A stretch of 51,175 bases of DNA. It comes from Pigoraptor vietnamica (lineage: Eukaryota > Opisthokonta > Filasterea). The translations under genes were made by a program, and so were the position numbers. This document shows positions 29,079 through 32,001 of the stretch, piece after piece. The first letter of the stretch is position 1. Each line of letters opens with the position of its first letter. The notes below the pieces were generated by a model, which did not search any database, had not been told where the DNA came from, and saw only the letters and a list, made by a program, of their open reading frames with translations. The stretch covers positions 1 through 51,175 of the forward strand of contig CALSCQ010001818.1 in assembly GCA_943704525.1 (NCBI GenBank), written 5' to 3'.

Positions 29079-32001
29079 ATGGTGAAGGTGGCGGGTGCGT
29101 CGAACGCCTGCCGCAGCGTGGCGTCCGCCGCGGCCGGCAAGCTCGTCCCCACAGACAACCCCAACTTTGCGTGCAGTGCGTTGCCGAACCACTGGCGCTG
29201 CAACAAGTCGCTGCCCCAGCACTTCCAGGTGTTCGCCCTCGCGCACGTGCCCGATGACGTCGAGGTGACGGTGGTGGCGACCAACGACGAGAACCCGATG
29301 GGGGAGCTGCGCAATGCGTCCGCGCGCATGAAGGACAACGTCGCGACTTTTCAGGACCTCCGCTTTATGGGACGCTCCGGTCGCGGCAAGTCGTTCAACC
29401 TCGTGATCACGATCCACACGAATCCGCCGCAAGTCGCTCGGCTGATTGAAGTGATCAAGGTCACGGTCGACGGCCCGCGCGAACCGCGCCTGCGACGCGT
29501 GCTCGGCGGGGGCACGCGCTCCGGCGGAAGCGACGACGAGTCTGACATGAGCAGCAGCGAGCACAGCGCGCTCGACACGGCAGTGGAGGGTTCCTCGAAC
29601 GAGTTTTCGGTGGGTTCGCCGTCGTCCAAGGGCGTCGGCGGCCTCACGCGCAGCAGCGTGGTCGTCGTCGGGCGCCCTTCGTCCGCGAAGCCGGCGATTG
29701 GGAGCCCCGGCATGCGGGGGTACCGCTCTCGCAGCCTCAACAGCGTCCTTCGCCGGTCGAATTCGCTGCCGTACATGTCGCCGGAGGGAAAGCGCCGACA
29801 GCTGCCGCACGGCATTACGCTGAAGAACGACGAGCCCAAGCTCACCAAGTCGGCGACGGTGACGGACCTCGAACTGCAGCGTCTGCGCGCGCAATCGCTC
29901 GACTCTGGCGAACGGGCCGGATCGCCGTTCCACCCACTCTCGCCGCCGATTACCCCGCAGACGCCGCCGCGGGAGCTGGCCGGCGTGGGGCCTGCCGTGG
30001 CGCACGCCCAGTCGAACAGTGGGTGTCGCAGCGACCGCCCTTCTTGCGCACTTGTGTGTGCGGCTGTGTGCTGTAATGTAGCCGTCTGAAGTTGTGCTGC
30101 TGTTGTACGCACTGTCCTTGCCTGTCTTTTGTTGACGAACGCGCGCTGCGCCCTCTGCAACATAGGCTCGCTTGCGTCGTCCGCTGGCTCGGACTACAGC
30201 ATGTACTCGTCTGTCGAGTCGCTTCTCTTCGGCGGCAACTCGTGCGATATGGCCGAGTTCTCGCCGCCGGATGCAGGGGCGCTCGGCACGGGAGGTGCGC
30301 ATTCACCCCACCTCCCTCTTTTCTCTCCATCGACTCTTAACACCTCCCCTTAAGAGTCGATGGCGGTGCAACCTCTATCTCTCTGCGAGGAGCTGAGGTC
30401 TAGGTCTCCCTCTTCTTCTTTTTCTTGCCCCATGTACCGTCCCCCGCTGACACCCGCCCTTCCCACGGCGCCCCCAGAGCGCGACTTTGTGTTCAAGGCG
30501 CTGATTCCGGACGAGGGCGTCGAGGGGCAGTCCTGCATCGCGGTGCTCAAGGTCGGCTCCGCTGTTCAGGACATCACGTCGATTGGGCTTGTCTTTGGCG
30601 AGACGCTTCCTGCGTTCGACAAGGTGGATGTGGCACCGGACGGCACGATCTACTGCGTGTTCCGGACGCCGCGGAGGGCCGAGTTTCGGTCGTCGCGCGT
30701 GGAAGTGTCGGCGTTTTACCGCCTCGGTGACATGGGGGAGAAAATCGTGCACGCGGGGAATGCGCAGACGTTCACGTTCAAGGACAGCGAGTGTGAGTGT
30801 GCCCCGCTTGTCACGCGCGCCCTGCGTGTTCTGTTTTGCGTATGTGGTGTTCGAGTGATCTGTGTGCGTGAGCTATTCAATCGAGTTGACTCGCTCGCGT
30901 AATCTACCCGCTTGGCTAATGTATATCTCTCATACACACTACTAATACGCCCTCCCTTCCCCGTCCACGCAGCCGAGATCACCGAGAAGAAGCTCTCGAT
31001 GCTCATGCTCAAGCTGCACCTGCGCAACCAGCAGTACCAAATTCAACAGCACGAGCTGCTGCAGAAGGCGGGTCCCGCGGCGGTCGTCAACGCACCCGCG
31101 AACCTCTTCAAACAAATCGGACCCCTCGAGGACAAGCTCTTCGCGCGCTGCGTCCCCGCGCTCAAGCGGCTGGGCTCTCTCGGGCGCCTCCCCGCGCTCG
31201 ACTCTGACGGCTTCATGAACGTGCCCTCGAGCGGGCTCACGGCGCTGCACGTGGCGTCGGAGTTTGGGTGGATCCGATTCGTCGACATGCTTCTGTCGTC
31301 GGGCGCCGATCCCAACCAGCTGGACGGGTGCGTAATGTGCTATCCGCAGTGTGTGTGCTGTGTGCTGTGTGTGCTGTGTGCGTGCAGAATGATTGCGCGT
31401 TTCTAATGTGTTGGATTGCACCACGCCCTCTCCGAGCATCTCAACTGACCTTGCGCCTCCCTTGGCACGCAGACTGCAAAACAGCGCGCTCGACTGGGGC
31501 TTCATGTCCGACCAAGACGCCGTCTGCCGCGTCCTCGTCTCGCGCGGCGGACAGTACAACACATTCCGCACCAAGATGGAGGAACTGCAGGCCGGCCTCG
31601 AGCACATCGACATCGGAAGCCCCGGTGTCGCGCAGGGGGCCCCCGTGCGTCCCGGCCCTCCCCTCAACACGAGCCCCGTCCCACCGCCCGTCCCCATGGC
31701 CATCGACGAGCTCGCGCACCAAGAGTCGTTTGTGAACGAGGCGATCAACTTGGAGGCCGACGTGATCGATCCGAACGCGTTTGGGATCGTCGACGTCCCG
31801 CCGTACCCCGCGACGGACGGCCTCTTGCCCGCCGTGGACATGTCGCAGTCGATGGGCGTCCACGCGCCTGCGAGCGGCGTGGCGATGTTTGACGGTCTCG
31901 GGGAGAGCGGGCACCTCGCCGACACGGAGGCGGAAGGGCGGTCGTCGGACGAAGAGCGACAGCGCGCACAGGTGGCCGCTGGCGCGAAGCGACGCTTCTA
32001 G
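29079..32001 (+). CDS. Runt-domain transcription factor with IPT/TIG-like and ankyrin regions
   Basis: Five exons: 29079-30018, 30166-30294, 30478-30792, 30973-31327 and 31473-32001, 755 residues with phases that join cleanly. Residues ~20-143 are a full Runt domain: [58 protein letters not shown] and TVDGPREPR. All DNA-contact stretches known from RUNX (WRCNK, GRSGRGK, DGPREPR) are kept. Residues ~144-356 are a Ser-rich linker. Residues ~357-462 look like an IPT/TIG Ig-fold ([37 protein letters not shown]). A helical segment follows ([20 protein letters not shown]). Residues ~547-612 form one clear ankyrin repeat ([13 protein letters not shown]...GADPNQLD) and a weaker one. The tail is Pro- and acid-rich and lacks the animal VWRPY motif. 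It probably acts in the nucleus; partners are unknown. Confidence 0.9.

Follow-up and report, generated by a model that had tools for sequence, protein, structure and literature searches.

A gene encoding a Runt domain with C-terminal ankyrin repeats in Pigoraptor vietnamica, and its counterpart in Chromosphaera perkinsii

The 51,175-nucleotide stretch of Pigoraptor vietnamica DNA analysed here (the window) contains a real, single gene of five exons that couples a Runt domain with a conserved C-terminal half ending in ankyrin repeats, and a protein with the same domain order is encoded by Chromosphaera perkinsii. Sequence comparison identifies this Runt-ankyrin protein as a variant of the RUNX type, whose layout is present in two unicellular holozoans and absent from the animal RUNX proteins compared here. 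We know of no described Runt-ankyrin protein. Among the matches listed from the open-licence literature, none was named in titles or abstract openings, and no description was found of the C. perkinsii protein, Nk52_evm4s2657.

One gene with Runt and ankyrin domains

All introns of the gene are GT-AG, with intron 1 bounded by gtgggtgt (donor) and caacatag (acceptor). The exon phases agree, and the open frame, closed by TAG, encodes a protein of 755 residues with the following features.

29079..30018, + strand: exon 1, residues 1-313, with the Runt domain, its basic NLS-like end (by eye) and the linker
29118..29492, + strand: Runt domain, residues 14-138 (Pfam PF00853, E 4.1e-52, 175.6 bits)
29754..29771, + strand: RSNSLP, an RxxSxP motif in the linker, residues 226-231, opposite RCQSAP in C. 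perkinsii
30166..30294, + strand: exon 2, residues 314-356, Ser-rich linker
30478..30792, + strand: exon 3, residues 357-461, a conserved domain, by eye IPT-like (putative)
30973..31327, + strand: exon 4, residues 462-579, a conserved spacer (by eye helical) and ankyrin repeat 1
31233..31325, + strand: ankyrin repeat 1, residues 549-579 (Pfam Ank PF00023, E 9e-6)
31473..32001, + strand: exon 5, residues 580-755 and stop, with ankyrin repeat 2 and a Pro-rich, then acidic tail
31477..31569, + strand: ankyrin repeat 2, about residues 582-612 (Pfam Ank_2 extends to residue 609), with a counterpart in C. perkinsii

The Runt domain spans positions 4-128 of the 129 in the Pfam model, and a Runt profile search of the 32.5 Mb assembly (1395 contigs) reported this gene as its sole match (180 bits). 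Pfam assigns about two ankyrin repeats to the protein, in the region (residues 547-612) for which an earlier note on this DNA had proposed a profile search. In addition to Ank over residues 549-579, Ank_2 matches residues 548-609, below the cut-off with the full protein and above it with the C-terminal piece. The protein ends in AKRRF and lacks VWRPY, which is also described as missing in a haplosclerid demosponge (PMC2674455). The downstream neighbour in the window (32455-34102, + strand) encodes a 3-hydroxyisobutyrate/6-phosphogluconate dehydrogenase-type enzyme (NAD_binding_2, NAD_binding_11).

A protein search with the window protein gave 1019 matches at E <= 0.001 (8000 scored), of which the best 120 were listed. 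The top match is Nk52_evm4s2657 (P0002) of C. perkinsii, an ichthyosporean to which this style of protein name belongs (PMC6981761), with E 9.6e-114 and 38% identity over 81%. It has precomputed Runt and ankyrin domains and is the only protein with ankyrin among the best 120 of 1019; none of the other 119 aligns with more than 23% of the query. Both proteins have the order Runt domain, exon-3 domain, spacer and two ankyrin repeats, and their alignment is continuous over all four splice joins. Identity amounts to 63% in the Runt domain (73/116 aligned residues), 30% in the linker (50/169), 38% in the exon-3 domain (38/100), 54% in the spacer (residues 462-546; 44/81), 62% in the ankyrin region (40/65, both repeats matched) and 9/34 residues in the tail end. 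The spacer and ankyrin region thus nearly equal the Runt domain in conservation while the linker falls well below it, so that the C-terminal tail looks selected. The C. perkinsii protein has a shorter end (630 residues in total, C-terminus YDLPH) and a short GGAGEGGE between its exon-3 domain and ankyrin repeats.

Because the C. perkinsii protein has the same domain order, a mix-up of exons is unlikely. An adjoining RUNX gene and ankyrin gene could in principle have been merged by the model or the assembly; however, a protein from a separate genome is joined identically and aligns over all four splice joins, making such an artefact extremely improbable, and we reject it. The open frame, the stop and this alignment uphold the five-exon model in matching phases proposed in the earlier note. 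The Runt domain that it described is likewise confirmed, as is the joining of this domain in one gene to a C-terminal half with ankyrin, and the layout that it suggested seeking in other holozoans is present in C. perkinsii.

Searches for a third member were negative within their reach. A search with region 335-540 of P0002 returned only P0002 among 1298 candidates (E <= 10), and a profile of both C-terminal halves picked up, besides P0002, four ankyrin proteins scoring 37-48 bits (7999 scored); these searches require shared 5-residue words, and distant relatives escape them. In the search of its own genome for a paralogue of the tail, exon 3 matched itself and one further stretch at E 2.73, and the spacer matched itself only. 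Eighteen stretches of viral contigs fitted a pattern, none of which encodes a relative. The Runx of Creolimax is reported to go up in the amoeboid stage (PMC4739763).

The Runt domain: DNA contacts and CBF-beta face

The Runt domain of the window protein is 66-68% identical to those of RUNX1 (P0104), fish RUNX3 (P0048) and Runx P0119. At the 13 positions that we take to be its DNA contacts, all 13 residues are kept in both the window protein and the C. perkinsii protein, in agreement with the earlier claim that all DNA-contact motifs are present.

The face that binds CBF-beta in animals appears to be altered. At eight positions that we presume to belong to this face, four residues match RUNX1 in the window protein. 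Six further positions have been described as variable in Nematostella (PMC2527000), and all six differ from RUNX1 in the window protein. Together, 4/14 face positions match RUNX1 (P0104) versus 61/89 other positions (p 0.006, on a list that is biased because 6 of its 14 positions were chosen as differing in Nematostella). The corresponding counts in C. perkinsii are 4/14 versus 46/89 (p 0.15, not significant), and Runx P0119 and fish RUNX3 match at 11/14 and 14/14 face positions, respectively. A search for CBF-beta in the P. vietnamica genome gave no match at E <= 1, and its control search was equally silent. It is plausible that this Runt domain does not have CBF-beta as its partner.

The exon-3 domain and similar layouts in the same genome

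Exon 3 holds a conserved stretch in a single exon, with a spacing that is IPT-like by eye. Pfam gave nothing at E <= 10 for residues 357-461 or their C. perkinsii counterpart, in searches whose HMMER filters conceal most weak matches, and exon 3 matched neither the TIG nor the RHD_dimer profile. It is missing from the 39 genome-wide TIG matches at E <= 10, as are the IPT stretches of the genome's own CAMTA and NF-kB genes. When exon 3 was compared by hhalign with small alignments of Rel and CAMTA IPTs, the result stayed at noise level. In the PDB, the exon-3 pair (window and C. perkinsii) matched a prealbumin-fold protein twice, with E 0.54 and 1.1. Chou-Fasman prediction calls seven strand runs in exon 3, and 31% helix and 26% strand in the spacer part of exon 4, but the method is unreliable in this protein because it also calls the ankyrin part 41% strand.

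Five Rel/NFAT-type IPT sequences and 11 others went into the IPT profiles (mixed, Rel and TIG). With HMMER --max, the score of the window exon 3 was reached by 26/1000 shuffles (mixed), 338/1000 (Rel) and 413/1000 (TIG), and that of the C. perkinsii domain by 77/1000, 115/1000 and 79/1000, respectively; in a leave-one-out control, the scores of seven known IPTs were reached by 0/500 shuffles each. Global hhalign of the pair to the mixed profile scored 12.4, a value reached by 1/60 and 0/500 column shuffles (3.44 +/- 2.03 for the latter), and ran end-to-end over 90 columns in register with an hhalign probability of 1.2%. The Rel-only profile scored 2.9 versus 2.94 +/- 2.39 for shuffles (26/60 reached it), and 7/60 shuffles reached the score with the TIG-only profile. 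In local mode, the scores were reached by 3/60 (mixed), 23/60 (Rel) and 3/60 (TIG) shuffles. Against the mixed profile, six of seven other pieces of the window protein scored at most 5.7, residues 420-525, which overlap exon 3, scored 10.0, reversed exon 3 scored 6.7, and six left-out IPT sets scored 27-65. As single sequences, the window exon 3 scored 3.3 (reached by 51/100 shuffles) and the C. perkinsii domain 5.6 (13/100); for comparison, the Ig domain titin I27 scored 10.4 (0/100), nearly as high as the pair, B2M 8.2 (2/100) and six others 2.6-5.6.

The profile match of the pair is thus suggestive and not specific to IPT. The IPT-like fold that the earlier note saw in residues 357-462 was not confirmed, with Pfam silent in both species and single sequences no better than shuffles, and a derivation of the domain from Rel finds no support at the shuffle-level score of the Rel-only profile. 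A negative profile result is nevertheless compatible with IPT, because in BCAP a TIG that precedes two helices and ankyrin repeats shares just 8.6-14.8% identity with other TIGs (PMC7128310). In our judgement, the balance tips slightly toward an IPT fold for exon 3.

The three classes of protein with a DNA-binding domain, IPT and ankyrin repeats to which the earlier note pointed are encoded by separate genes in the same genome. A p105-like NF-kB gene on contig C531 (G000:C531:11500-20500) has an RHD part at 25.4 bits (below cut-off), RHD_dimer at 67 bits and ankyrins; RHD and RHD_dimer were matched only there in the assembly (E <= 1), and the Runt-ankyrin gene is without a Rel homology DNA-binding domain. 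This NF-kB gene also shows, by eye, KKRK and a glycine-rich stretch. A CAMTA-like gene (G000:C377:1-9900, about 1975-5400) encodes CG-1 (72 bits), an IPT stretch that matches CAMTA1 (48.7 bits), one ankyrin and a weak IQ-like stretch below cut-off; CG-1 was found only at this locus (E <= 1) and is absent from the Runt-ankyrin gene. An SPT23/MGA2 gene (G000:C339:22000-27282, about 1801-4500) has SPT23_MGA2_DBD (E 9e-53, 179.5 bits), TIG at 20.2 bits, slightly below cut-off, and one ankyrin above and one below cut-off, and its DNA-binding domain is absent among the Pfam families of the window protein at E <= 10. In contrast to these CAMTA and SPT23 stretches, exon 3 matched neither CAMTA1 nor Pfam TIG. 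The three classes thus exist alongside the Runt-ankyrin gene, which is no mislabelled member of any of them. Elsewhere in the assembly, many TIG matches fall in two long open frames (4749 and 4334 residues; G000:C1136 and G000:C351) that possibly encode large surface proteins.

The ankyrin part of the pair scored 39.8 by hhalign with the genome's own NF-kB, 39.1 with its SPT23 and 30.1 with its CAMTA; because the first two are nearly equal, no single parent is indicated. The NF-kB/CAMTA-like layout described in the earlier note stands in part: Pfam and the C. perkinsii protein support a Runt domain plus a conserved half ending in ankyrin, whereas the IPT middle domain is unproved. Its suggestion that RUNX and Rel exchanged parts or share an ancestry remains a guess, and an exchange is not supported by these sequences, in which the ankyrin part singles out no parent and the Rel-only profile is at noise level.

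Proposed function and comparison with known systems

We favour, with some reserve, a reading of the protein as a RUNX-class sequence-specific transcription factor in which a C-terminal module serves for the pairing of subunits or the binding of partners. Its Runt domain would bind RUNX-type sites, and the exon-3 domain, spacer and two ankyrin repeats would form the pairing or partner-binding unit, much as subunits are paired in BCAP by its TIG-helices-ankyrin unit or in EBF and NF-kB by their IPT. Since the surface of Runt that would contact CBF-beta is apparently changed, stabilisation of DNA binding probably falls to this module and not to CBF-beta. The linker might perhaps govern nuclear entry through its RxxSxP, presumably a 14-3-3-type motif. 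It is a weak candidate for a 14-3-3 site, chosen after inspection of the alignment, and 78/5000 column shuffles of the linker also give an aligned motif.

The ankyrin part could instead fold onto the Runt domain or NLS, as in p105/p100, and block its activity until cleavage or modification releases it. The order of DNA-binding domain, middle domain and ankyrin repeats is that of the NF-kB gene in the same genome, whose ankyrins the pair resembles (39.8), but the likeness to SPT23 is almost the same, Pfam finds just two or so repeats, and by eye no long glycine-rich run separates exon 3 from the ankyrins, unlike in that NF-kB gene; we consider this mechanism unlikely. It is also rather doubtful, though consistent with the silence of Pfam on IPT in either species, that the C-terminal half is unrelated to IPT and serves as an adaptor particular to this lineage, a private domain plus two ankyrin repeats that would recruit co-regulators where animal RUNX uses its VWRPY/Groucho tail. 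The single-sequence scores, which shuffles reach and titin I27 exceeds, and the termini AKRRF and YDLPH in place of VWRPY would fit such an adaptor, but the 90 columns in register with the mixed IPT profile, at a score that almost no shuffle attained, argue against it. A RUNX-class factor with a pairing or partner-binding module remains our preferred reading.

RUNX is a central factor in animal development, with CBF-beta as its usual sole partner. A more speculative extension, which we regard as improbable, is that the protein represents a fourth class with DNA-binding domain, IPT and ankyrin, in which Runt takes the place of the Rel, CG-1 or SPT23/MGA2 domain. The IPT-helix unit would pair the protein without need of CBF-beta, and early RUNX may have lost the tail toward animals as CBF-beta took over. 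With an ankyrin-tailed RUNX in two unicellular relatives, the action of RUNX before CBF-beta and VWRPY becomes testable, as does the question whether IPT-ankyrin-type tails were joined repeatedly to different DNA-binding domains.

The Runt domain and its DNA contacts are common to the window protein and animal RUNX (CBF-alpha), from which it differs in the missing VWRPY, the apparently altered CBF-beta face and the conserved C-terminal half with ankyrin repeats. Its tail can be likened to the DBB-ankyrin region of BCAP, BANK1 and Dof, where a barely recognisable TIG, helices and ankyrin serve pairing (PMC7128310). Pfam DBB has no match in the window exons, and a genome search was silent, as was its control. 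The TIG of BCAP with two helices and ankyrin repeats is reported to drive dimerisation, the TIG and two helices alone being monomeric in solution and a longer construct dimeric (PMC7128310). These proteins, however, have a TIR domain, act in the cytosol and do not bind DNA, whereas the window protein has Runt. The order of DNA-binding domain, middle domain and ankyrin repeats is shared with NF-kB p105/p100, which carries RHD in place of Runt. CAMTA and SPT23/MGA2 are further classes that combine a DNA-binding domain with TIG and ankyrin, and here the likeness lies in the layout: CAMTA has CG-1 and SPT23/MGA2 its own DNA-binding domain where the window protein has Runt.
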